A stretch of 40,488 nucleotides of DNA, from positions 1-40,488 of IMG/VR virus record IMGVR_UViG_3300047564_000542; one strand, written 5' to 3'. Position 1 is the first letter of the stretch. Each line of letters begins with the position of its first letter. Source of the stretch: a virus. This document shows positions 992 through 31,240 of the stretch, in pieces. Position numbers and translations under genes: made by a program. The notes beneath the pieces were generated by a model. That model did no database searches. It was not told where the DNA came from and worked only from the letters and a program-made list of their open reading frames with translations.

Positions 992-2842
992 ATGGCCGAC
1001 AAAATCGTTGAGATTCCCAACATCGGCCAAGTGGCATTTCCTGCCACCATGTCGGATGACGAGATCATCCGCGCCATTCAGTCACTGCAAGCGCCTGCGG
1101 CTGCACCAGCAATGCCACCCGACACCATGGCACGCCAAGCAGGCTTGGCCGTGCGTCCTATGGCACAGGCTGCGCTGACTGCTGGCGGGATGCTGCCGCT
1201 GGCTGTGGACCCCTTGGTGAACCTGTTTAACCTGGCTGCTGGCACAAACGTGCCAACCATGACGCAAGCTACACAGACAACGCTTAACCGCATGGGATTC
1301 CCACAGCCTCGCACAGCGCAAGAGCGCATCGTGCAAGATGTGTCGCAAGCTGGCTATGGTGTTGGCGGCTTGGCCAACTTGGCCGCACGGGCAGCGCCCA
1401 TGGTGACATCGACAGTCGGTCAGGGCGTGACCCAGATGCTGGCCACCAACCCACGGGCGCAGTCTTCAGCCGCATTGGCGGCAACTGCTGCTGGTGGCCT
1501 GCTGCGTGAGGGTGAGTTTTCCCCCGGCGTGCAGTTGGCTGGCGCATTGGGTGCAGGCATGATGGCCCCAGGTGGCCCAACCCTGTCCACCACACAGCGT
1601 GCACTGGCCGCGCCTGCTGGTCTGGTCAAGCCATTCACACGCGAAGGCCGCGAGGTCATTGCAGGCAATGTGCTGCGCAATGTCGCAACAGATCCAGAGC
1701 GTGCCATTCAAAACTTGCAGTCTGCACAGTCCACAGTGCCAGGGCTGCGCATCACCACAGCCGCTGCTGCGCGTGATCCCGGCTTGGCTGGTCTGGAAAC
1801 ACCTTTGCGGTCTGCAACCTTTGACCCATCCAACCAGTTTGGCGCCAGACTGTCTGCCAACCAGCAAGCCTTGTTGGATTCATACCGCAGGCTTTCTGGT
1901 CAACCTGGCTCGATTGTTCGAGCAGAAACCAAGCGCAATGAACTGACTGGTCCTATGCGTGAGGCAGCCTTTGCCAACGTGCAAGTCGATCCGGCTACAT
2001 TCCAAAGCGGCATCTCATTGGTGGTTAATCGCGCCATTGAAAATGTGATGGACAGTTCGGTGGGTGTGCGTAAAGATGTTGAAACAGCCATGAAGTTTGC
2101 GACTGACCGCATCGCTAGAGCCAAAAATCCCGAAGAGTTGTATGAAGTGCGCAAAGACTTGGCGGCGGCTGCGCAAGGCAAATACAACCAAGAAAACCCC
2201 AGCCTGCGTTTAGCCAAAGGGCAATTGAACGATGTGATCAGCACCATTGATGATGTCATTGAAGCGGCTGCGCCTGGCTATCAACAGTACATGAGCCAGT
2301 TTAGAAAATCATCCAGCGCCATCGACCAGATGCGCGTGCTGCAAGGCATTCAAGACCGTGTGACCACAGGCCAGCCCAACATCATGACGGGTGAGCCAGT
2401 GCTGGCGGCAGGGGCATTGCGCCGAGAACTCAAAACCAAGGCTGATGAACTTGACTTGAAGCTGTCAGATGCAGCGCAAAGACGTCTTGACAACATCATC
2501 AACGAGATCAATCGTGGCCAGGCTGCGACAGCGCCAGGTGTGAAGGCTCCAGGCTCCAACACCTTCCAGAACATGAGCATGGGCAACCTGATCGGTCGCG
2601 TGTTCAGTGAATCTATGGCCGACAACACCACACTGCGCACCATGACACGGCCACTTGATTGGCTGTACAAGCTGCCCGATCAGCAGGTGCAGCAGTTACT
2701 GGTGGAGGCCATGCTGGACCCGCAGTTGGCCGCGCAAATGATGAGCAAGGCCAGCATCATGAAGGTTGAGCCACTGGCAAAATCACTGCGTAAGAAGGCC
2801 GAGCAACTTGGCTATGGATCAATCATCGGCGCACAGGAGTAA
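992..2842 (+). CDS. Large internal virion/cargo protein (left allele)
   Basis: A 616-residue protein starting 3 bases after the previous stop, with a purine-rich AGGAG upstream. The N-terminus (residues ~4-33) contains a short module, VEIPNIGQVAFP followed by SDDEIIRAI, of a kind I recall at the start of many podoviral virion proteins. Residues ~45-200 are Ala/Gly-rich with hydrophobic stretches suited to membrane passage. The remainder is helical and charged, ending near residue 616 with a Lys-rich segment. No catalytic motif was recognised. It occupies the same slot as 37285-39372, but beyond general composition the two do not align convincingly by eye. Inference: an ejection or effector-carrier protein; tail-fibre or lytic transglycosylase roles are not supported. 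Confidence 0.65.
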   Translation: MADKIVEIPNIGQVAFPATMSDDEIIRAIQSLQAPAAAPAMPPDTMARQAGLAVRPMAQAALTAGGMLPLAVDPLVNLFNLAAGTNVPTMTQATQTTLNRMGFPQPRTAQERIVQDVSQAGYGVGGLANLAARAAPMVTSTVGQGVTQMLATNPRAQSSAALAATAAGGLLREGEFSPGVQLAGALGAGMMAPGGPTLSTTQRALAAPAGLVKPFTREGREVIAGNVLRNVATDPERAIQNLQSAQSTVPGLRITTAAAARDPGLAGLETPLRSATFDPSNQFGARLSANQQALLDSYRRLSGQPGSIVRAETKRNELTGPMREAAFANVQVDPATFQSGISLVVNRAIENVMDSSVGVRKDVETAMKFATDRIARAKNPEELYEVRKDLAAAAQGKYNQENPSLRLAKGQLNDVISTIDDVIEAAAPGYQQYMSQFRKSSSAIDQMRVLQGIQDRVTTGQPNIMTGEPVLAAGALRRELKTKADELDLKLSDAAQRRLDNIINEINRGQAATAPGVKAPGSNTFQNMSMGNLIGRVFSESMADNTTLRTMTRPLDWLYKLPDQQVQQLLVEAMLDPQLAAQMMSKASIMKVEPLAKSLRKKAEQLGYGSIIGAQE

Positions 2843-2846
2843 CGGC

Positions 2847-3644
2847 ATGGCTTTGCTTGATGACGAAGAACTGATGCCATTCTTTGGCAATCCCAACGTC
2901 CAGCGCCAAGGGGAAAAAGCCAGAGCATTGGCTGCGCAGCGTGGTGTCAACACGCTGCCAGATCCTCGAACTTATGCGGCCATCTCTGGCCTGCTGGGTC
3001 AGGCTCCAGACAAGATGGGCTTCAGCGTGCTCAATCCTGACTACGAAGACATCCAGCGTGTGGCCCGTCCAGCCTTTGCTGTTGGCACTGCCTTGGGTAT
3101 TGCGCCCGTGATGCGCGGCATGAATCTGGCGCCACGGCCAGCAGTGCGTGCGCCATCTGCTGCATCTCAGCGCGGGTCTGTTCGTTTGCCTATTGCTTCT
3201 GATCAGCCAATGGCCTCTGAGCCACTGGGGCTTTTGGACACCACTTATCGCAGCAGTCACAAAGCACCAAATCGAGAATTTGGAGCGCCTTTGCATGATT
3301 TAACTGGCGGTGGGCAAATGTACCCAGCAGATGTGTACTCGCCAAAAGCTGCGCAGTATTACGGCACTGGCTATCCCATGGCCGACAAGCAGGCATTTGA
3401 TTTGGCAAGGCGCGTGCGCGGCAACCCAGATGCAGAAGTCACCATGTATCGCGCAGTGCCAAAAGATCCAAACATTTCAAACATAAATCCTGGTGATTGG
3501 GTCACTTTGAGCAAGGACTATGCAAAAACACATGGTGAATCTGCTTTGCTTGGAAATTACAAAATCATTAGTCAAAAGGTCAAGGCAAAAGACCTTTGGA
3601 CCAATGCAGATTCAATTCACGAATTTGGATACAGCCCAGATTAA
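2847..3644 (+). CDS. Virion-associated ADP-ribosyltransferase-like effector
   Basis: A 265-residue protein; ATG 2847 is chosen for its AGGAG ribosome-binding site spanning the upstream stop. Residues ~30-90 (PDPRTYAAISGLLGQ, then MGFSVLNP) form an N-terminal segment I associate with phage polyvalent virion proteins. The C-terminal ~100 residues fit the ART-PolyVal type of ADP-ribosyltransferase: MYRAVP (Arg202), a GDWVTLS strand (Ser222) and HEFGY (Glu259) give an R-S-E order. Members of this group are thought to be injected with phage DNA and to modify host proteins using NAD. The target is unknown. The gene is absent at the equivalent place in the right-hand copy. It converges on the next gene with a 4-base overlap. 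The fold assignment comes from motif recognition only. Confidence 0.65.
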   Translation: MALLDDEELMPFFGNPNVQRQGEKARALAAQRGVNTLPDPRTYAAISGLLGQAPDKMGFSVLNPDYEDIQRVARPAFAVGTALGIAPVMRGMNLAPRPAVRAPSAASQRGSVRLPIASDQPMASEPLGLLDTTYRSSHKAPNREFGAPLHDLTGGGQMYPADVYSPKAAQYYGTGYPMADKQAFDLARRVRGNPDAEVTMYRAVPKDPNISNINPGDWVTLSKDYAKTHGESALLGNYKIISQKVKAKDLWTNADSIHEFGYSPD

Positions 3645-4036: not shown

Positions 4037-4338
4037 TTGCCGCACCCTTGCGCGTCTCTTTCCTGTTGCTCCAAGGCCAGCAAGAACAGAATGCAGCACC
4101 CGGCATGGGCCATGTGCGAAAGCCCCGTCTCTGGGTCATTTTGCTGGTGCTGGGCATAGGCCGCCATGTGCCTGAAGGCTGCGGCCAGATACCGGGTCTT
4201 GCCATTCTCAACAACGCGCCAGTTGTCGCGTGAATACTTCTTGGCCCCAAGGTCCAAGACCTTGACGATTTCCTCAACACTGCCCCACGGCAGCAGCGTG
4301 TAGTCAGGTTTTTCTTGGTCGAACTTCATGCCGGTCAT
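4033..4338 (-). CDS. MazZ-like dATP/dGTP pyrophosphohydrolase (DUF5664), left copy
   Basis: A 101-residue protein, ATG at 4338 overlapping the methyltransferase stop as ATGA. It matches the dATP/dGTP diphosphohydrolase N-terminal family (DUF5664) in its order of motifs: KFDQEKP near the start, LPWGSVEEIVKVLDLGAKKY, a W after Asp-Asn, RHMAAY, then a D-P-ETG-SHMAHAGC helix. The Glu/Asp/His positions fit an all-alpha NTP pyrophosphohydrolase that binds a metal. In phages with 2-aminoadenine genomes the MazZ relative converts dGTP to dGMP and dATP to dAMP. No PurZ or family-A polymerase partner is visible here, so a general nucleotide-pool or defence-related role is equally possible. Its right-hand counterpart is 39756-40061. 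Confidence 0.75.
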   Translation of the reverse strand: MTGMKFDQEKPDYTLLPWGSVEEIVKVLDLGAKKYSRDNWRVVENGKTRYLAAAFRHMAAYAQHQQNDPETGLSHMAHAGCCILFLLALEQQERDAQGCGK

Positions 4339-5717
4339 TTCAAATTCTCCTGAATACGTTGTCCAATCCACCTGACATTTGGTACAGCCCAAGAGTTACC
4401 CAGAGCCTTGTACCGTGGTCCATCTGGTGAATCATCTTTCTTGCGCCAAGGGATGTTGGTGTAATTATCGGGAAAGCCTTGGAGGCGCTCACACTCCACA
4501 GGGGTCAGGCGGCGAACGGCCATGCTGGGAGGCTGAATTGCCATTTGATGCTCTGGAATGCGTCCAGCCCGAAGCGTCCCCGCGCTGTCGTACTGCTGCA
4601 CCCCATACTCGCTGTCTTGAAAAATTCCAATTGGCTGCGCTACTGCTTGCGGCTGCCCACGGCTGTCCATGCAATACGCAGAGCCGTCCAGCAAATACTC
4701 TTTCCCCTGTGGCCCAGCCTCTGGGGCGCGGCCTATGCAATGCGGGTGGATGCTGATAGGCTCAACCACATAAGCCTTTGTATCTGGCGCATGGTGTGAG
4801 CCACTGCAAGTGTTTAAGGCTGGAGAAATCACAGGCACTAAATGCTCATCGTCTCCAGACATTCCACCCTCACCGGGTCGCCTAGTTCTCAAAGTCTGAA
4901 CTGTAGACGCAAGAACAAACAAAGGGCATCCAGCATTAACGTGCTGGTCTTCCAGCCCTTGCTTTGTTCCAAATGTGGTGTCCAGAGTGCTGCTTACTTC
5001 TGCTGGCCAGCTACGCTTTGAAGCGCCATCTCCAATGCCTCCGGCAGATTCTTCCCTCGCCTTTCTGCTCGGCGCAGTATCCCTGCGCACGCTGTCGAAC
5101 TCAAAAAGAACCGAGGCGGGATCGAAGTCGTCTCTAGAACTTGCGACAACGAACACACGGCGGCGGCGTTGGGCCACTCCGAAATATTGGGCATCCAAGA
5201 TACGCCACGCGACTGTTCTTTGGGGTCCAAGAACCACACCAGCGTTTGTCCATTTGCCCCTTGGCGGCTCCACTGGATCTTCTTCACCGGCAAGGCCCGA
5301 GATGAAGCAACCGAACGCATTGTCTTTGGTCGAGAGGACTCCAGGCACGTTTTCCCAGAAGACGATGGCTGGCTGCTCACCTCTGGCTGATCGAACATTG
5401 TCAATTGCATTTGCGATACCCACAAAAGTTAGTGAAAGATTCCCTCTGGCATCGTCCAAAGAGTTGCGAAGACCAGCCACTGAGAAGGCTTGGCAAGGTG
5501 TGCCACCGCAGAACACATCTGGCGCTTCAACTTCACCAGACAGAATGCGCTCGGGCAGCAGTGTCATGTCCCCAAGATTAGGAACATCAGGGTAATGGTG
5601 AGCCAGCACAGCAGACGGGAATGGCTCAATCTCTGACAACCACGCAGCCTTCCAGCCAAGTGGATGCCATGCAACGCTGGCAGCTTCAATGCCGCTACAC
5701 ACAGACCCGAATCTCAT
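4335..5717 (-). CDS. DNA (cytosine-5) methyltransferase
   Basis: A 460-residue C5 methyltransferase. Visible motifs: SAM-binding start (GSVCSGIEAAS, residues 4-14), GGTPCQAFS with catalytic Cys75, WENVPG with Glu122, QRRRRVF near 183-189 (motif VIII), and the C-terminal motifs IX/X (RRLTPVECERLQGFP, then RYKALGNSWAVPNV). The stretch from ~190 to ~410 is a long target-recognition region. It probably methylates phage DNA to evade restriction, or host DNA. It lies between the MazZ-like gene and a 58-residue protein, with ATGA overlaps on both sides, so it is translated with them. Compared with the right-hand allele it carries 36 extra residues just before motif IX. The recognition sequence cannot be inferred. 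Confidence 0.93.
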   Translation of the reverse strand: MRFGSVCSGIEAASVAWHPLGWKAAWLSEIEPFPSAVLAHHYPDVPNLGDMTLLPERILSGEVEAPDVFCGGTPCQAFSVAGLRNSLDDARGNLSLTFVGIANAIDNVRSARGEQPAIVFWENVPGVLSTKDNAFGCFISGLAGEEDPVEPPRGKWTNAGVVLGPQRTVAWRILDAQYFGVAQRRRRVFVVASSRDDFDPASVLFEFDSVRRDTAPSRKAREESAGGIGDGASKRSWPAEVSSTLDTTFGTKQGLEDQHVNAGCPLFVLASTVQTLRTRRPGEGGMSGDDEHLVPVISPALNTCSGSHHAPDTKAYVVEPISIHPHCIGRAPEAGPQGKEYLLDGSAYCMDSRGQPQAVAQPIGIFQDSEYGVQQYDSAGTLRAGRIPEHQMAIQPPSMAVRRLTPVECERLQGFPDNYTNIPWRKKDDSPDGPRYKALGNSWAVPNVRWIGQRIQENLK

Positions 5718-10024: not shown

Positions 10025-12187
10025 ATGTCTCAAGAGTTTTTGGCCTCATCGGCCAACCCATCCCACGCAGTCGCCTTGGCCATTGCCGACATTTGCCCTG
10101 AAGCCCTCTTTTGCGGCTTCAGGCTAAAACCAAAAGCCGATGGCACATTTGCCAAGCTGCCAGTGTCTAAGGCTGGCGCTGGTGTCGGTGCTGACATTGA
10201 CCACGCCCAGCTAGTCAATGGCAATGAGTTGCGCACCATGACAGCGCCGCCAAACAATTCAGCCCTCTGGGGCATCTTCATGCAAAACCGCATGACTTAT
10301 GACCCGTTTGACGACTTGGTGCTGACCATCCTCGATCTCGACACCAAGCGATCCACAGCACCGCGCGACATCCGCATGGTCAAGCTGATGGACCTGGCCA
10401 AAGAGCGCGGCCTATTGACCGAGCGCAGCCACAGCAAGAAGGGCGGCCACATCATCTTTTTGGCCAAGCCTGACCCAACCTTGCCGCCGCAAATCAAGCT
10501 GGGCAACCACCAAGAGATTGAAATCTTTGGCCAACCCAAGAGTGCAGGCAAGAATGTCATGTTTACTGGCGATGCACTTAAAGGAGATTTGACCGAGTTG
10601 GGCTGCACGGTGACTGAATTTTTGGCGCAGGCAGGCATTCAGGTGTCGCAGCCAGAGGTCAAGAAACCATCTGAGGCGTTTGACTTCAGCCCCATCCTGA
10701 GCAAAAGCAAAGGCACGCCCAGCGATTACGACAAGGCTATGGAGGCGCTGGAGTTCATCAACCCCGGCGCGGATTACGACACATGGTTGGCCATGGGCTT
10801 TGCTTTGCACAAAGAGTTTGGCGACAGAGCCAAGCAAGATTGGATGTCTTGGTCCATGGCTAGACCAAAGCCAACCAGCGAATCTGACCTAGAAGATCAC
10901 TGGAAATCATTTGGCAAAAAGGACGGTGTTGGTATCGGCACGCTATTTCACACGGCCAAGCAAGCTGGCTGGGAGCCACCGACAAAGGCATCTGAGCGCA
11001 AATCAGCAGTGGAAGATTTTCAAAACATATTAAGTCCAGTATCTGTTGCAACAGGCTCACAGGATGAGCCTGAACCAGAAACACCGCAGGGTTGGCCAGA
11101 ACTCAGCCTCGACATCACCAGCCTCAAGCCCATTGACTACATGATCCAAGGCTTTTGGGCGCACAGCTTCTTTGTCTTGGCTGGCCAGCCTGGTGTCGGC
11201 AAAACCACGGCCATGATTTCAGCTTGCATGGTCATGGCAGGGTTTCAGATCGCTGACACAACCATCACGGCCAAGAATCACCGCAAGACCATCTTTGTGA
11301 CCGAAGACAGTGACCAGATCACCCGCACCCTGTTTGCCTATGCCAAGCACTTTCACATCAAACCAACTGACCTGCTCAACTGGTTTGTGGTCATTGATGC
11401 CAAACGCTCAGATGTCAAAGACCTCCTGACCTTGGCCCACAACGTCATCAGACACACGGTCAACGGCATCCGCCCACACCTTGTCTTGGACACGGCCAAC
11501 AGCACCATGGCCATCGACAACGAGAATGACAACTCAGAGGTCGGAAGCTATCTGGCGGCCCTCAAGCAGACCATCTACGTACAACTGCACACGCCCATAT
11601 CCATCCTGACCCATACCAACAAGACCATATCCAGACAAGACAGTGATGCCATGGCCCGGGGAGCATCAGCCTTCACAGGCGATGCAACCCTGACAGGCAT
11701 CCTGTTTATGGACCCGGATGGCACCCGCTACATGAAGCTCACAAAAACCCGGTACGAGCCAGATTTCAGGGAAATCAGGTTTGAGACGCAGTTATTTCCG
11801 GAAATCGTCATCGACCAGCATGGAGAGCCACAGACCATGCTGTGCCGCATCTCCATCCCTTACCCGTCAGCCGAAGAAGAACGCAAGCAAGCTCAAGCCG
11901 AAAAGCAAGAGGACAAGCGCCAGCAGCAAATCGTTGATGCCGCTGATGCCGCCTGCAACTTTGTCCAAAGCCTTTTGAACACTCATGGCAAGGTGATCAT
12001 GCGCAAAGGACCAGGCCGCCCCAATGTGCCAAAAGAATTTCAGGACGCTTACAAACTTGAGTGGCCAGAGGTCTACCAGGCAGTGCCACAGGCCGATCAG
12101 TCATACGCAAGAAAGGCTGTTGGCACGGCCATCTTCCATCGGTTTGGGGTCAGTCCAGACCAGTCTGGATGGGTGCAGTTGGTCTAA
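10025..12187 (+). CDS. Primase-polymerase / replicative helicase fusion
   Basis: A 720-residue replication protein. The N-terminal archaeo-eukaryotic-type primase domain (~20-200) has the metal-binding DLD (104-106) and SKKGGHIIF (137-145). A PriCT-like linker domain follows (~233-318; DYDTWLAMGFALH, WMSWS). Then comes a RecA-fold ATPase with Walker A GQPGVGKT (387-394), Walker B HLVLDT (485-490) and an SILTHTNK segment, resembling RepA/AAA_25 helicases. The C-terminal ~100 residues are charged and may bind the origin. It probably primes and unwinds the phage origin and loads host polymerase, as no phage polymerase is present. Iteron-like repeats begin at its stop codon. Confidence 0.85.
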   Translation: MSQEFLASSANPSHAVALAIADICPEALFCGFRLKPKADGTFAKLPVSKAGAGVGADIDHAQLVNGNELRTMTAPPNNSALWGIFMQNRMTYDPFDDLVLTILDLDTKRSTAPRDIRMVKLMDLAKERGLLTERSHSKKGGHIIFLAKPDPTLPPQIKLGNHQEIEIFGQPKSAGKNVMFTGDALKGDLTELGCTVTEFLAQAGIQVSQPEVKKPSEAFDFSPILSKSKGTPSDYDKAMEALEFINPGADYDTWLAMGFALHKEFGDRAKQDWMSWSMARPKPTSESDLEDHWKSFGKKDGVGIGTLFHTAKQAGWEPPTKASERKSAVEDFQNILSPVSVATGSQDEPEPETPQGWPELSLDITSLKPIDYMIQGFWAHSFFVLAGQPGVGKTTAMISACMVMAGFQIADTTITAKNHRKTIFVTEDSDQITRTLFAYAKHFHIKPTDLLNWFVVIDAKRSDVKDLLTLAHNVIRHTVNGIRPHLVLDTANSTMAIDNENDNSEVGSYLAALKQTIYVQLHTPISILTHTNKTISRQDSDAMARGASAFTGDATLTGILFMDPDGTRYMKLTKTRYEPDFREIRFETQLFPEIVIDQHGEPQTMLCRISIPYPSAEEERKQAQAEKQEDKRQQQIVDAADAACNFVQSLLNTHGKVIMRKGPGRPNVPKEFQDAYKLEWPEVYQAVPQADQSYARKAVGTAIFHRFGVSPDQSGWVQLV

Positions 12188-12365
12188 TCCGGTAATCCGG
12201 TAGTAATCCGGTAGTAATCCGGTATACCGGATTAGACAATGGCTGGCTTTGGGGATTAAGTGGGGGGTCTTTTGCCCCACTTATCCACAGGCCAGTCTGC
12301 GAAGAATCAGGGTTGTTTGTCTAATCCGGTAAGGCGGTAGATTCCCTTAAGGGTTTACCGGATTA
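12185..12365. repeat. Iteron-like TAATCCGGTA repeats (candidate origin)
   Basis: Seven perfect 10-mers: forward at 12185, 12193, 12204, 12215 and 12322, inverted at 12225 and 12356. Copies at 12204 and 12215 are 11 bases apart (one turn). 12215-12234 is a perfect 20-base palindrome. A further palindrome, CCCTTAAGGG, lies at 12344-12353 between the last inverted pair. Position immediately downstream of the primase-helicase gene suggests initiator binding sites or autoregulatory operators. Confidence 0.7.
12281..12289 (+). other. Perfect DnaA box
   Basis: TTATCCACA, identical to the strong DnaA-box consensus, lies between the iteron clusters. It is the first of six exact copies in 1.4 kb. Confidence 0.6.
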
Positions 12366-12406
12366 GGAATACTTCAAAGGTTTACAGTTTTAGGTGGGAC
12401 AAAAAG

Positions 12407-12754
12407 ATGCTGAATTCAGAGTTATCCACAGGTTATCCACAGGCTGCAAATTGGGTCGAAGATGACCGTGTTTTATGCCAAAACTGCGTTAATGCGGTAA
12501 ACGTGGATTGCAAGCAGTCCATGCCAGCCGAGCAGATGGAAAAGCACCGCAAGGTCAACGCCATACCGCTGCAATGGATGTTCGATGTAACCAAGGTCAG
12601 GAACGGCTGGGCAACAGTCACATGGAAGGCTTGGCAGTGCCAGGCCACTGGAATGTCCACCATGCCGTTTGATTTGAAGCACCGATGCCATTTGTATTCC
12701 AAGGCAACTGAACAGCCATCGTCTGTAAAATCAGACGCATGGTGGCTCGACTGA
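12407..12754 (+). CDS. Hypothetical Cys-containing protein, 115 aa
   Basis: ATG 12407 follows a GGTGG-type ribosome-binding site. Two DnaA boxes fall in codons 6-12. The protein has a CQNC pair near residue 24, a third Cys ten residues later, and two more Cys in the second half (WQCQATG, HRCHLY), which could bind zinc. A VTKVRNGWATVTWKAWQC segment looks like beta-strands. It overlaps the VRR-NUC gene by 16 bases. No family recognised; the first codons may be non-coding if translation starts later. Confidence 0.5.
   Translation: MLNSELSTGYPQAANWVEDDRVLCQNCVNAVNVDCKQSMPAEQMEKHRKVNAIPLQWMFDVTKVRNGWATVTWKAWQCQATGMSTMPFDLKHRCHLYSKATEQPSSVKSDAWWLD
12422..12441 (+). other. Tandem pair of DnaA boxes
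   Basis: TTATCCACA occurs at 12422-12430 and 12433-12441, 11 bases apart on the same strand and helical face. The spacing suits cooperative DnaA binding. The pair lies inside the first codons of the 115-residue ORF. Confidence 0.6.
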
Positions 12755-13122
12755 GAAAAAGCATTGAACACACTGAGCAGGTAAAACTGGTGCAGCGTGT
12801 TCGTGCGTTTTATCCAGACGTCATCATTGCCTCCATACCGAATGGGGGTGATAGAACGGCCTCAGAACGCGTTAGGCTGCACAGTGAGGGTGTACTGGCA
12901 GGGATGCCTGATCTGTGCGTCCTGGAGGCTTGTGGTGGGTTTTACGGGCTGTTTGTGGAGATGAAGACAGCCACAGGGCAGCAAAGCAAAGAGCAGAAGG
13001 CTTTGCAGTTGCAATTAAACAACAGAGGGTATCTGTGCACAGTTGCCAGATCAGCCTCTGAAGGCTTTGAAATCATTAAGGGGTACTTGAATGGCGAGAA
13101 ACTCATTGGCCGAGATTGCTGA
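12739..13122 (+). CDS. VRR-NUC domain nuclease
   Basis: A 127-residue stand-alone VRR-NUC protein (PD-(D/E)XK superfamily). Signature elements: EQ near residue 13, IPNGG (33-37), GVLAGMPDL with metal-binding Asp58, and FVEMKTATGQQS with Glu74-x-Lys76. Family members cut branched DNA, including Holliday junctions, and in phages are thought to resolve replication or packaging intermediates. Its place just before the small terminase gene suits a role in clearing branched DNA before packaging. It overlaps its neighbours on both sides (16 and 32 bases), implying translational coupling. Confidence 0.85.
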   Translation: MVARLRKSIEHTEQVKLVQRVRAFYPDVIIASIPNGGDRTASERVRLHSEGVLAGMPDLCVLEACGGFYGLFVEMKTATGQQSKEQKALQLQLNNRGYLCTVARSASEGFEIIKGYLNGEKLIGRDC

Positions 13123-13573
13123 CCAAGGCGCAGCCAACATCGCAGCCGCACAAAAGAAAAAGGCCGAGGTCAGCTTGGCTAACAAAGCGATTCACGCATT
13201 CGGGGGCGAGGATGCCGTCATCGAATTCATTGCATCCGGCGGCACCATCTCCGCGCTGTGCAAGGTATTGGGGATCGGGAATACGACGTTTGACCGATGG
13301 GTCGAGAGAGGCGGCGAGGAGCGCATGGCTGCTTACGCGCGTGCGCGGGTGCGTGCAGGGCAGAGTTTAGCCGAGCAGACGATTGACATCGCTGATGCCG
13401 CAACGATCCAAGAGGTGCAGCTTGCCAAGCTACGCTGCGACAGACGCGCTTGGCTGGCTTCTAAGCTGTCTGAGGAGTTCTCTGACAAGCAGCAGCCGCT
13501 GGTCAACATTGACCTGGGCAGCATGGCGCTCGATGCACTGCGCAAACGCAGCATAGTGAATACCAACGATTGA
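13091..13573 (+). CDS. Terminase small subunit
   Basis: A 160-residue protein with ATG 13091 preceded by AAGGGG. An N-terminal HTH-like region (EDAVIEFIASGGTISALCK, GIGNTTFDRWVE) is followed by a helical oligomerisation segment, the pattern of Sf6-type small terminases, which bind pac DNA as a ring and hand it to the large subunit. The C-terminal residues (LVNIDLGSMALDALRK) probably contact the large subunit. Unusually, it lies 2.8 kb upstream of the large-subunit gene, separated by the candidate origin and a block of small genes. Confidence 0.75.
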   Translation: MARNSLAEIADQGAANIAAAQKKKAEVSLANKAIHAFGGEDAVIEFIASGGTISALCKVLGIGNTTFDRWVERGGEERMAAYARARVRAGQSLAEQTIDIADAATIQEVQLAKLRCDRRAWLASKLSEEFSDKQQPLVNIDLGSMALDALRKRSIVNTND

Positions 13574-13615
13574 CGCTGCTTCATACAACGTCCATTATGT
13601 AAAGTCGTGTTGCAG

Positions 13616-13682
13616 TTATCCACAGATTTAGTAATACGTTATGCGTAGCTTTTAGGTTATCCACAGGAATCTGTGGATAACC
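13616..13682. other. DnaA-box cluster with inverted pair
   Basis: TTATCCACA at 13616-13624 and 13657-13665 on the forward strand, and its complement at 13672-13680. The last two make a 12-base inverted repeat with a 4-base loop (13655-13666 and 13671-13682). Imperfect relatives (CCGTGGACA, CTGTGGACA) follow to 13712. Located in the 335-base gap after the small terminase gene. Confidence 0.6.
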
Positions 13683-13736
13683 GTGGACAAAACCCTGTGG
13701 ACAGATGGACTCGGCCAGCCGACCTGGCCGCGCTGA

Positions 13737-13821
13737 CCCCCCCCTGGGCCGCCGCGGCGGGGGGCGGCTGCTGCGGTACTTGACACCCATCTGCATCCCC
13801 TCATCCAAAAAAAATTTTTTT
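13737..13821. other. GC palindrome and A/T tract in intergenic gap
   Basis: Eight C (13737-13744), the perfect palindrome CCGCCGCGGCGG (13749-13760) and six G (13759-13764) form a potential strong stem. About 45 bases on, A8T7 (13807-13821) is an easily melted or bent tract. Together with the adjacent DnaA boxes this resembles an origin or a packaging-site layout. No gene is present in 13574-13908. Confidence 0.45.
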
Positions 13822-13908
13822 AACTTCATCAAAAAATGACTCTTAAGCACTTGCACCCCATCACCAACTTGACTTAAACTGCAATTCCTATCAACCAGGA
13901 GTTAAACG

Positions 13909-14073
13909 ATGAACACGACATACCTGATCAAGGTCAGAGCCTTGTACCCGCATAGCCGCCACTTGCAGAGGCAGTGGATCAAGAGCATTCGGCATTTGGG
14001 GGCACGCTGGTTGTTGGGCCAGCCGCAGCCGCATGAGAAGTTGCGTGAGCAGGCAGCGGGGAGGTGTGTATGA
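13909..14073 (+). CDS. Small basic hypothetical protein, 54 aa
   Basis: ATG 13909 follows a CAGGAGTTAAACG ribosome-binding site. It encodes a 54-residue Arg/His-rich protein (starts MNTTYLIKVRALYPHSR) without a membrane segment, possibly nucleic-acid binding. Its stop overlaps the next ATG as ATGA, the first link of a chain of overlapping small genes extending to 16328. Confidence 0.55.
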   Translation: MNTTYLIKVRALYPHSRHLQRQWIKSIRHLGARWLLGQPQPHEKLREQAAGRCV

Positions 14074-16328: not shown

Positions 16329-16337
16329 TTGACGCCT

Positions 16338-17750
16338 ATGGCAAAAACAGAAAATGTGTTTCAGCAGTGGGTGGACAGGTATCACCCTGACCCGGTGCTG
16401 TTTGTGCGGGAGGTGCTGGGGGTGGACCCTGACCCCTGGCAGGTAAAGTTCTTGGGGGCGATTGCCCGTGGGGACAGGAAGATCTCAGTCCGCAGTGGCC
16501 ACGGCGTGGGCAAGTCCACAGCATCAAGCTGGGCCATGCTGTGGTACTTCATGACCCGCAGCCCGGTCAAGGTGGTGGTGACCGCGCCGACCAGCAGCCA
16601 ACTGTATGACGCCATGTTTGCTGAACTCAAGCGGTGGATCAACGCCATGCCTGCCCCACTCCAAGGCTTGCTGACTGTAAAGCAAGAGAGGATCGAGTTC
16701 AACGCTGCGCCGACTGAAATGTTTATTTCGGCACGAACCAGCAGGGCCGAGCAGCCTGAAGCATTGCAGGGCATTCACTCTGAGTATGTGATGCTGGTGG
16801 CCGATGAGGCGTCAGGCGTGCCGGAGCAGGTGTTTGAGGCGGCGGCAGGCTCAATGTCTGGACACAATGCTGTGACGCTACTGCTGGGCAACCCGGTGCG
16901 GTCCAGCGGTTTCTTCTACGACACCCACACCCGCCTGTCTGGTGAGTGGACCACCTTCCAGGTGGCGTGTACGGATTCGCCACGGGTGAGTGATGAGTAT
17001 GTGAAGGAGATGGCGCAGCGGTATGGCGAGGACAGTAACGTGTATCGGATTCGCGTGATCGGGGAGTTCCCGAAGGGCGATGACGATACGGTGATTGCGA
17101 TGGACCTGCTCGAAAGTGCGCTGCACCGGGATGTGGCGGCCAGCATGTCGGCGCCCATGGTGTGGGGGCTGGACGTTGCGCGGTTTGGCAGTGACAGGTC
17201 AGCCCTGTGCAAACGGCAGGGCAACGTGGTGACCGAGAGCATCCGCACTTGGAAGAATCTGGACTTGATGCAACTGACGGGGGCGGTGGTGGCCGAGTAC
17301 AACGTGCTGCCGCCAAGCCAGCAGCCCAAAGAAATCTTGGTGGACAGCATTGGCCTGGGTGCTGGCGTGGTGGATCGCCTGCGCGAGTTGGGCCTGCCAG
17401 CCAGGGGGATTAACGTCAGCGAATCGCCAGCCATGGGCGGGACGTACAGGAACCTGAAGGCTGAGCTTTGGTACAGGGCAAAGGCGTGGCTGGAGGCCAG
17501 GGATTGCAAGCTGGCCAAGGATGAGGTGCTGATCAGCGAGTTGGCCACGGTGCGCTACAGCTTCACCAGCAACGGCAAGATCCAGATCGAGGGCAAGGAC
17601 GAGATCAGAAAGCGCGGCCTGCCAAGCCCTGACAAGGCCGATGCGTTTGTCTTGACGTTTGCAAGCGATGCAATTGCCGGGATGTACGGGTCAGCGGCCA
17701 GCAACAAGTGGAGCCAGCCGCTGCGCCGAAACCTGTCGAGAGTCGCATAA
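16338..17750 (+). CDS. Terminase large subunit
   Basis: A 470-residue packaging motor. The ATPase domain has Walker A GHGVGKST (54-61), the coupling-like VVVTAPTSSQ strand, and Walker B VMLVADEASG. The nuclease domain (RNase H fold) starts with GLDVARFGSDRSA, continues ILVDSIGLGAGVVDRL and ends with PSPDKADAFVLTFA, giving the expected acidic triad. ATG 16338 is preferred to the TTG at 16329, though neither has a good ribosome-binding site; coupling to the upstream gene is probable. It cuts and translocates DNA into the prohead through the portal. Confidence 0.93.
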   Translation: MAKTENVFQQWVDRYHPDPVLFVREVLGVDPDPWQVKFLGAIARGDRKISVRSGHGVGKSTASSWAMLWYFMTRSPVKVVVTAPTSSQLYDAMFAELKRWINAMPAPLQGLLTVKQERIEFNAAPTEMFISARTSRAEQPEALQGIHSEYVMLVADEASGVPEQVFEAAAGSMSGHNAVTLLLGNPVRSSGFFYDTHTRLSGEWTTFQVACTDSPRVSDEYVKEMAQRYGEDSNVYRIRVIGEFPKGDDDTVIAMDLLESALHRDVAASMSAPMVWGLDVARFGSDRSALCKRQGNVVTESIRTWKNLDLMQLTGAVVAEYNVLPPSQQPKEILVDSIGLGAGVVDRLRELGLPARGINVSESPAMGGTYRNLKAELWYRAKAWLEARDCKLAKDEVLISELATVRYSFTSNGKIQIEGKDEIRKRGLPSPDKADAFVLTFASDAIAGMYGSAASNKWSQPLRRNLSRVA

Positions 17751-26832: not shown

Positions 26833-28260
26833 ATGGCAGATTCAACTACGACAAATTTGTTACTGACCAAACCAGAGGTCGGTGCATCGACTGATACTTG
26901 GGGGACCAAGATCAACACCGACTTGGACACCATTGATGCGCTGTTTGATGCGGGCCCAGTGCTCAAGGTGACAAGGGGCGGCACAGGTGTCGGCACATCC
27001 ACTGGATCGGGCAACAACGTGTTGTCCACTAGTCCGACATTGGTGACCCCAGTATTGGGAACACCAACAAGCGCAACTCTGACAAACGCCACAGGCTTGC
27101 CCTTGACCACAGGCGTCACAGGCACTTTGCCTGTGGCAAATGGCGGCACAGGCATTACAAGCCTTGGCTCTGGTGTTGCGACATTCTTGGGAACACCAAG
27201 CAGCGCCAACCTTGCTGCTGCGGTAACAGACGAAACAGGCACTGGCGCTTTGGTGTTTGCCAACAGCCCCACCTTGGTGACTCCAGCCTTGGGCACTCCA
27301 GCATCGGGTGTGGTGACAAACCTGACCGGCACAGCCTCCATCAACATCAACGGCACTGTGGGCGCTACAACGGCCTCAACTGGTGCTTTCACTACGCTAT
27401 CTGCCACAGGGGTGACAACGGTTCAAGCTGGCACTGCTGCGGCTCCTGCAATCACCACTTCCGGCGACACCAACACAGGCATCTTTTTCCCTGCGGCTGA
27501 CACCATTGCTTTCTCTGAAGGTGGTGCAGAGGCTATGCGCCTCGACTCCTCCGGCAACCTCGGCTTGGGGGTTACTCCGAGTGCTTGGAGTGCGTACAAA
27601 GCATTTGAGGTAAATGCAGGTTCCATTGCAGCTAGTGCCGGAGCAGGTACAGTAATTGTTTCCAACAATGCTTTTTTTGACGGTACAAACTGGATTTATA
27701 AAGCCACAGGCGTTGCATCTGATCATGTTCAAACTGCTGGTCAACACTGGTTTCGTACAGCAGCCTCCGGCACAGCAGGTAACGCTATTACCTTTACTCA
27801 GGCGATGACGCTGGATGCGAGTGGGAATTTGGCTCTTGGTACAACAAGCGCAGGGACAAGATTAGTTCTTGCTACTGATGATTCAGCAGCAACTGGTCAG
27901 CTAAGGTACGCCCGTTCTGCTGATACAAGTTTTTATTGGGAAACTGGTAGAGACAATAATCTTACTGGCGATTTTGTTTTTAGTAACGCTGCTGGTGGCG
28001 CTAAAACCGAACGCGCCCGTATCACTTCCGGCGGGGAAGTGCTGGTGGGCCTGAATTCTGCCACTGGTGTTGCACTGCTTCAAGTATCCGGGCCTATCCG
28101 GACTACAGGCTACACGGTTGCAACATTACCCGCTGGAACTGTCGGCATGAGAACGTATGTGACAGACGCACTAGCTCCGGTTTTTGGCGTTGCTGTCGCT
28201 GGCAGCGGTGCTGTCACTATCCCTGTTTTTTACAACGGCGCAAACTGGATCGTTGCTTAA
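26833..28260 (+). CDS. Tail fibre protein, 475 aa
   Basis: N-terminus [19 protein letters not shown] and [11 protein letters not shown] is a common phage fibre attachment segment. It is followed by Thr/Gly repeats ([42 protein letters not shown]) and shaft-like segments with [19 protein letters not shown] and SGGEVLVG, typical of trimeric fibres. The C-terminal tip ([24 protein letters not shown]-like end) resembles receptor-binding fibre ends. It probably contacts the host surface. ATG 26833 follows AGGGGTAAAAC. Confidence 0.82.
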
Positions 28261-30728: not shown

Positions 30729-31240
30729 AGCTGTCAAAGGCTGGTGAAGACCTGATGCATCGTTTTGAAGGGTGCAGAAGTCGCCCATATTTATGTCCGG
30801 CGCATATTCACACGATTGGCTACGGCCACGTCCTGTACCAAGAGCAGATCAGGCTTCCTATGGTGCGGCCACCGGGCAAGACCAAAGAGGACATTCCGAT
30901 GATCCGCAAAGAGTACCCACTGAAACCGGAGGACAACCGTGTTTGGACGAAAGAAGAGATCAACCACCTATTCCGAGATGACGTCGCGTCTTTTGAACGT
31001 GGTGTTCTACGACTTGTTCCCGGCGTTGTTGGCCGTCAAGGCGCTTTTGACGCTCTGGTCTCTATATCCTTCAATTTTGGACTAGGCAACCTCCAACGCT
31101 CTACCATCCGTATGAAGGCCAACCGAGGCGACTGGGAGGGTGCTGCACAGGCTTTCAGGATGTGGACCAAGGGAGGTGGGAAAGTGCTGCCGGGTCTTGT
31201 GCGGCGCAGGGAGGCAGAGATTGCTTTGTTCCTGTCTTAA
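30725..31240 (+). CDS. GH24 (T4-type) lysozyme / endolysin
   Basis: A 171-residue muramidase. Glu15 in RFEG and THR30 in HTIGYGH align with T4 Glu11 and Thr26. The position of T4 Asp20 is Cys24 (PYLCP), a natural variant known in related proteobacterial phage lysozymes. ALVSISFNFGLGNLQRST, a GWW-like helix and GLVRRREAEIALFL are family hallmarks. An insertion of ~25 residues (45-70) is present between the catalytic part and the rest. No signal or SAR sequence, so release needs the holin upstream. Confidence 0.9.
   Translation: MKLSKAGEDLMHRFEGCRSRPYLCPAHIHTIGYGHVLYQEQIRLPMVRPPGKTKEDIPMIRKEYPLKPEDNRVWTKEEINHLFRDDVASFERGVLRLVPGVVGRQGAFDALVSISFNFGLGNLQRSTIRMKANRGDWEGAAQAFRMWTKGGGKVLPGLVRRREAEIALFLS

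Follow-up and report, generated by a model that had tools for sequence, protein, structure and literature searches.

What function do DnaA boxes have in the genome of a phage? The window analysed here (i.e. the whole stretch of DNA, 40,488 bases in length) is the complete IMG/VR entry IMGVR_UViG_3300047564_000542. Its portal, capsid and adaptor genes are of SU10 type, and judged on these genes the phage is podovirus-like. The window contains six exact copies of the DnaA box TTATCCACA, at 12281, 12422, 12433, 13616 and 13657 on the forward strand and 13672 on the reverse strand, and no others. An earlier note had placed the boxes at these positions, and took them as a single cluster by which a phage without a polymerase might recruit host DnaA and the host replisome, or titrate DnaA away from the host origin. 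The rarity that it expected by chance is borne out, with 0.14 copies expected per window (sd 0.40) and a maximum of 2 in 100 dinucleotide shuffles; allowing up to one mismatch there are 16 in the window, compared with 5.7 expected. To the question of whether the boxes might be equally dense elsewhere, whole records are almost devoid of exact boxes outside the clusters. The positions are kept in independent relatives, which rules out an artefact, and in relatives found through the RepA protein they are shifted by no more than a few bases. The tandem pair at 12422 and 12433, 11 bp apart, is as had been described, and the inverted pair at 13657 and 13672 forms the palindrome GGTTATCCACAG-GAAT-CTGTGGATAACC. 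No DNA polymerase was found among the window ORFs scanned, some small ORFs lying outside the scan, in agreement with the note.

The six boxes do not form a single cluster, however. They fall into two groups with ~1.2 kb of genes between them, and these differ in their partners and their histories, so that we appear to be dealing with two separate devices. In our reading, to which we would give a probability of about 0.6, the first group (cluster I) together with a set of iterons is an origin, while the second (cluster II) serves to resolve multimers as an Xer site of the plasmid type, with DnaA as an accessory or regulatory protein. The reading is drawn from sequence analysis, i.e. from an Xer-like site of fixed geometry that is conserved, lies apart from the origin and is exchanged with a resolvase.

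Cluster I lies immediately downstream of the gene for a RepA-like helicase-primase of 720 aa (10025-12187, forward strand), with a PriCT_2 domain (PF08707, 9e-17) and an AAA_25 RecA-type helicase domain (PF13481, 2e-14). Its PHROG is annotated as DNA primase, it has 20 relatives in IMG/VR, and it is the probable replication protein of the phage. Further genes of replication type encode an SNF2 helicase, a DUF2800/PD-(D/E)XK nuclease, a gp2.5-like single-stranded DNA-binding protein and a VRR-NUC protein. Elsewhere in the window there is a gene for a cytosine-5 DNA methyltransferase (4335-5717, reverse strand), and an ORF at 2766-3644 that matches a PHROG named ParB C-terminal domain. The three exact boxes of cluster I are all on the forward strand. 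The first (12281-12289) lies at +96 to +99 from the RepA stop codon in relatives of the window's clade, and the conserved tandem pair (12422-12430 and 12433-12441) at +237 and +248, falling within the first codons of an ORF that begins at 12407. Cluster I occurs in the clade of the window, with related forms in G431, G433, G434 and MW202879, and is missing from another clade (L002, L003, L008, L017 and L018).

A repeat search revealed an array of iterons between 12184 and 12366, comprising direct copies of TAATCCGGTA at 12184, 12192, 12203, 12214 and 12321 and inverted copies TACCGGATTA at 12225 and 12356. Iterons and DnaA boxes thus share a largely non-coding block, as expected of a DnaA-dependent iteron origin. 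The array forms a hairpin (12182-12237), and the single-stranded fold of 12180-12290 has z = -6.9 relative to shuffled sequences. A second hairpin (12257-12283) is replaced in relatives by unrelated hairpins, so that the structure is retained while the sequence is not. In several relatives the corresponding place is occupied by an inverted iteron array whose units differ in sequence (e.g. GTCGACCGGAC); the same repeat search found no array in G431 or G433. We note that the unit sequence of the inverted array is fully different between clades (window 12184-12366, L003, L015, L019, L020 and L021). This turnover suggests that the units have co-evolved with an initiator, either the helicase-primase or some other protein.

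The minimum of the detrended cumulative GC skew lies within 400 bp of the 3′ end of RepA in 14 of the 15 records that have this gene, the fifteenth being an incomplete contig with just 156 bp beyond the gene. The change in skew is not explained by gene orientation alone, because third-position skew changes there between genes on the same strand, from -0.33 in the DUF2800 gene and -0.21 in RepA to +0.10 and +0.22 in the next genes. The position of the minimum indicates that cluster I plus the iterons is probably the replication origin of the phage, and we infer that initiation would occur there. We found no Rep_3 or winged-helix initiator gene beside cluster I. Cluster I may function in the manner of an origin of the P1 oriR, pSC101 or R6K kind, yet it stands outside that family because the adjacent gene encodes a PriCT_2 plus AAA_25 helicase-primase. 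The suggestion that host DnaA is recruited at a phage origin therefore fits cluster I, with its iterons, boxes, helicase-primase and skew minimum, but not cluster II.

Cluster II is located between the genes for the small (TerS, 13091-13573, forward strand; PF20901, 6e-15; PHROG 1482) and large (TerL, 16329-17750, forward strand; PHROG 2) subunits of terminase. On its TerS side is a 28-bp site, GCTTCATACAA-CGTCCA-TTATGTAAAGT (13578-13605), with the 11-6-11 layout of Xer sites such as dif, psi and pdif. An XerC-like arm (13578-13588) and an XerD-like arm (13595-13605), each of 11 bp, flank a 6-bp central region (13589-13594), all on the forward strand; the XerD-like arm is identical to that of several betaproteobacterial dif candidates. 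The first DnaA box (13616-13624, forward strand) is 10 bp from the XerD arm and its position is conserved. The second (13657-13665, forward) is at +41 from the first, and its inverted partner (13672-13680, reverse) at +56. A fourth, weaker box that was absent from the earlier note, TGTGGACAG at 13696-13704 on the reverse strand, matches the box sequence perfectly in certain relatives (L093 and L170). Beyond these lies a GC-rich stretch with an A8T7 tract (13727-13830), which alignment shows to be common to relatives with the Xer site and relatives with a resolvase, and which is therefore outside the Xer/DnaA cassette. The GC-rich part (13727-13771) was considered as a DNA hairpin and rejected, as it folds no better than shuffled sequences (z = +0.3).

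We scored Xer sites with a matrix of the arms only, derived from 30 betaproteobacterial dif candidates that were collected with a pattern blind to phages. Among the 80,922 positions of the window the site at 13578-13605 came top, scoring 18.2 (maximum 11.7 in 20 shuffles). The phage site took first rank in 11 of 16 records, and in 14 of the 16 its position was top; the two exceptions to top rank, G430 and G445, have divergent XerC arms that are weaker than that of the window. The XerC arm of the window itself departs from the ATAA end that is usual at dif, and this counts against the assignment. The site occurs once per replicon, with a single standout match in each record (in the window 41.5, the next being -1.1). 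Two copies are present only in G437 and G018, ~36 kb apart. The ends of the 39,996-base contig G018 (IMGVR_UViG_3300011335_000175) hold differing versions of one region ~36.3 kb apart, so it probably joins two strains of a circular or permuted genome of ~36 kb. A dif-like match at 31090 in the resolvase-bearing record G434 looks on reading like coincidence.

The arms are shared with chromosomal dif, above all the XerD arm TTATGTTAAGT or TTATGTAAAGT, as found in Rhodoferax and other betaproteobacteria. The dif site of Rhodoferax ferrireducens is ACTTGATACGATGTATATTATGTTAAGT (PMC2731167), and its arms are identical to those of the window at 18 of 22 positions and to the commonest phage core at 20 of 22. 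We considered a Rhodoferax-like betaproteobacterium as host on this resemblance, and treat it as a lead only, since just one published dif is involved; the pattern for the Rhodoferax dif matches one of 399 genomes. The phage site differs from chromosomal dif in its centre, which is of plasmid type (nnnCCA) whereas the host dif candidates have the TGTATA kind, in lying away from a chromosome terminus, and in having DnaA boxes alongside. A search by blastn with cluster II against plasmids and phages gave no match; a phage element compared with plasmids gave none but non-significant matches, two of which fall on Xer-like cores in Acinetobacter plasmids, ACTTCGTATAA-CGCCCA-TTATGTTAAAT and ATTTCGTATAA-CCGCCA-TTATGTTAAGT. 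The core of the Acinetobacter xrs (pdif) sites agrees with one form of the phage site at 25 of 28 positions, with the centre nnnCCA. This is the centre of two tested plasmid xrs that are independent of FtsK (compare T/CCGCCA), and xrs38/66 recombine without FtsK (PMC11705084). There are usually several xrs per plasmid, flanking gene modules, while the phage has one site per genome; and the surroundings of xrs38/66 revealed no accessory sequences, while the phage site has its DnaA boxes. On balance the best reading of cluster II is as a predicted multimer-resolution site of plasmid (xrs) type for host XerCD.

At psi the centre is GATCCA, and the known accessory sequences of cer and psi lie on the XerC side. 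The phage site is like ColE1 cer and pSC101 psi in having a single-copy Xer core with a plasmid-type centre, and adjoining sites for host DNA-binding proteins as accessory elements (PMC5357621). It differs in that DnaA boxes, on the XerD side, are found instead of sites for ArgR, PepA or ArcA, in being carried by a tailed phage and in being interchangeable with a serine resolvase gene. The placement of the boxes on the XerD side counts against our reading of cluster II.

The boxes are held in register with the Xer core. Almost every relative with an Xer-type site has the cluster II arrangement (+0, +41 and, on the reverse strand, +56). Scanning IMG/VR for an XerD arm, 12 positions and a box returned at least 120 stretches, while a control scan with one extra base in the spacer gave 26 matches, the only Xer-like one among them being L325; the rest were an unrelated repeat family and scattered matches. 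At least 120 stretches were likewise returned when the query was the Xer core without regard to boxes. About 63 of the matches listed overlap with those of the other scans, chiefly the scan with an exact box, and among 52 further distinct elements from that list 36 have a box with no more than one mismatch at +10. When 112 Xer elements are pooled (a set chosen in part by their boxes), the boxes concentrate at offsets of +10, +51, -66 and -89/-90. Four of the 112 cores have no box within reach, and this counts against the association. Xer cores without DnaA boxes are seen in L358, L395, L363 and L375; L358 and L395 have repeats of the AGGTCAAATTGTC type in place of the boxes, perhaps sites for another accessory protein.

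Across 30 elements that are less than 85% identical the Xer arms and boxes retain fixed spacing, while the spacer sequence varies. The information content is 1.36 bits in the XerC arm, 1.66 in the XerD arm and 1.58-1.66 in the boxes, the box values being somewhat favoured by the loose arm plus box match through which elements were admitted. Box 4 has 1.13 bits compared with 0.56 in the neighbouring spacer. The spacers have 0.56-0.69 bits and the outer flanks 0.28-0.39, conservation on the TerS/XerC side of the element being low at 0.39 bits. Xer accessory proteins include ArgR, PepA and ArcA (PMC5357621); our searches of an open-access library found no report of DnaA boxes at an Xer site or as its accessory sequence, nor of a tailed phage with a single resolution-type Xer site. 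Other arrangements of DnaA boxes were also encountered. Unrelated phage contigs (L085, L120 and L125; e.g. G030 27117-27210) have seven exact boxes in less than 100 bp, with spacings of 11, 11, 23, 11, 18 and 11, and a separate trio 6.7 kb away. A repeat of GCAAATATCCAAGCTTTTTATGTTAAAT, 11 positions and TTATCCACA is present in several copies within single viral contigs of more than 130 kb (L318, L322, L327, L328, L335 and L341 among others).

Could the two clusters nevertheless be parts of one DnaA-dependent origin, with cluster II as its distal part or a second origin at which DnaA loads the host replisome? The density of the boxes and their tandem and inverted arrangement would suit this, as would the nearby A8T7 tract and the distance of just 1.4 kb between cluster II and the skew minimum in the window. 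In seven other records (G016, G017, G430, G435, G441, G443 and G444), however, cluster II is 3-18 kb from the skew minimum, and the A8T7 tract is also present in lineages without cluster II boxes. Cluster II moreover persists where a primase-helicase of VapE type stands in for RepA (L098, L105 and G021-G023), and where TerL is just ~30% identical (L078, L083, L159-L164 and L171-L174). The VapE plus PriCT_2 gene has its own GGTTGCACC repeats (L098 8619-10787, L105 4088-6256, G021, G022 and G023), and in these records the GC-skew minimum is inside that gene. In a clade with ~77% identical TerL the element is inverted, ~265 bp upstream of TerL. In L170 (~4051-4350) the Xer and DnaA element is followed by CATACACTTATGTACGGAGACAC repeats, with another gene order and RepA on the opposite strand. 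On the strength of the inversion and of the gene order in L170, the element appears to be an autonomous cassette rather than the promoter of one gene. Conversely, in G433, G434 and W01 cluster II has been lost where a resolvase is present, while RepA and cluster I remain. The boxes of cluster II, fixed to an Xer site and exchanged together with it where a serine resolvase is present, thus give no support to the origin role suggested for them earlier, and we regard a single origin as improbable, though it fares best of the alternatives. The idea that cluster II is a piece of a host oriC was set aside as unneeded, given the Xer site.

The exchange with a resolvase bears on function. Using TerL as a protein bait, which is blind to the DNA element, we fetched 80 loci, of which 56 hold both TerS and TerL. 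An Xer-like core with boxes is found in 48 of the 56, and a serine resolvase in the other eight; none has both and none has neither. Thirty-eight of the 48 were recognized by score and ten are variants recognized by eye (e.g. AATCGYTACAT-TGTCCA-TTATGTTAAGT, with boxes at +22, +41 and -67). Such exclusivity would have a chance of 7e-10 if the loci were independent, but they are related and the evidence is correspondingly weaker; all eight resolvase loci could belong to one clade. The resolvase of these sister phages is a serine enzyme of Tn3 type (PF00239 in L021 and L022), and alignment reveals a clean swap running from the end of TerS to the shared GC-rich/A-tract block. Ten resolvase loci have a complete upstream region, and nine of these have lost the boxes as well as the Xer site. 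The remaining one, L021, combines its resolvase with six DnaA-like boxes but no Xer site; this counts against a tight link and indicates that boxes can outlive the Xer core. The mutual exclusion in all 56 loci is what would be expected if the element and the resolvase system were functionally equivalent, an argument that is comparative and not based on an assay.

The site might alternatively serve for attachment, with the phage integrating at the host dif by means of XerCD in the manner of the IMEX phages, and DnaA regulating integration or excision. CTXphi, VGJphi and the Xer-integrating microviruses likewise use host XerCD and a dif-like site, and XerCD-dependent integration is documented for filamentous and microviral phages (PMC2731167, PMC7062461). 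The dif-like arms would be consistent with this, as would the lack of an integrase gene in 19 records. Yet the nnnCCA centre is not shared with host sites of TGTATA type, and in the Acinetobacter sites tested Xer recombination required closely related centres and was not seen between unlike ones (PMC11705084). The XerD-arm plus box element was found in none of 399 genomes from the order of a betaproteobacterial MAG, and a search of GTDB genomes for prophages or hosts found no relative of RepA. The exact replacement by a Tn3-type resolvase also argues for resolution. We therefore consider integration at dif less likely, and improbable overall. Equally, a phage with no sign of lysogeny (i.e. no integrase and no RepA relative in GTDB) is a point against the need for multimer resolution.

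Another possibility that we doubt to a similar degree is that the boxes of cluster II are a sink for DnaA like datA, or a DnaA-controlled promoter, to which the Xer site is a separate passenger. DnaA is a known transcription factor and a small ORF begins at 13909; DnaA would also be bound by a replicating genome with several boxes of high affinity. But a sink has no need of the fixed 10/41/15/24-bp spacing to the Xer arm, and the titration proposed in the earlier note predicts neither an invariant spacing to the Xer core nor replacement by a resolvase. The element is turned round relative to its neighbouring genes in some clades and in L170, and boxes and Xer site are gained or lost jointly, except in L021. 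Finally, a pac or cos element of the neighbouring terminase is very improbable: it would account for the position that the element has in almost every lineage examined, with TerS on one side and TerL on the other, and phage phiM5 has terminal repeats just 5′ of TerL. But the arms agree with Xer sites, the element does not coincide with contig ends (an attempt to locate cos or pac from them revealed no shared break point), and resolvase lineages lack the element yet have the same terminases.

Returning to multimer resolution at cluster II, we propose the following mechanism. The phage helicase-primase would recognize the iterons while host DnaA helps to open the DNA of cluster I. At 13578-13605 host XerC and XerD would bind the two 11-bp arms, and on the XerD side host DnaA, occupying three or four boxes, would form an accessory or regulatory complex, taking the role that ArgR, PepA and ArcA have at cer and psi. 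This complex would permit recombination only if the two sites are direct repeats within a single circle, such that phage dimers or larger circles would be cut back to monomers, and DnaA could couple recombination to replication. The binding of XerCD and DnaA, the dependence on DnaA, and the direction and purpose of the reaction are what we infer here. There is a parallel in phage P1, which has oriR with DnaA boxes and iterons, and in which loxP and Cre resolve dimers. Like P1, for which the role of Cre in dimer resolution has been described (PMC2409434), our phage would combine a DnaA-box/iteron origin with site-specific recombination, as a system apart from it, to maintain its genome as a monomer. 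P1 has its own recombinase and an initiator of Rep_3 type, whereas the phage studied here has a helicase-primase and, we propose, uses the recombinase of its host.

Chromosomes and plasmids are known to have Xer resolution sites, and phages to use XerCD for integration. Cluster II would be a new variant of the plasmid-type Xer site that is widespread in environmental phages, and the Xer plus DnaA element is common in environmental viruses, with at least 120 stretches in each of the two scans. If our interpretation is true it explains clusters of DnaA boxes in phages that would otherwise be taken for origins. The reciprocal replacement by a resolvase suggests that a monomeric circular genome matters to phages that have no signs of lysogeny. 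Control of recombination by DnaA becomes directly testable on a short fragment of DNA. We suggest tentatively, at a little under even odds, that DnaA, placed at a set distance from XerCD at the Xer site of a virus, could be an architectural switch that couples monomerization of the genome to its replication, and so a new class of Xer accessory protein, in a large and diverse group of environmental podovirus-like phages.
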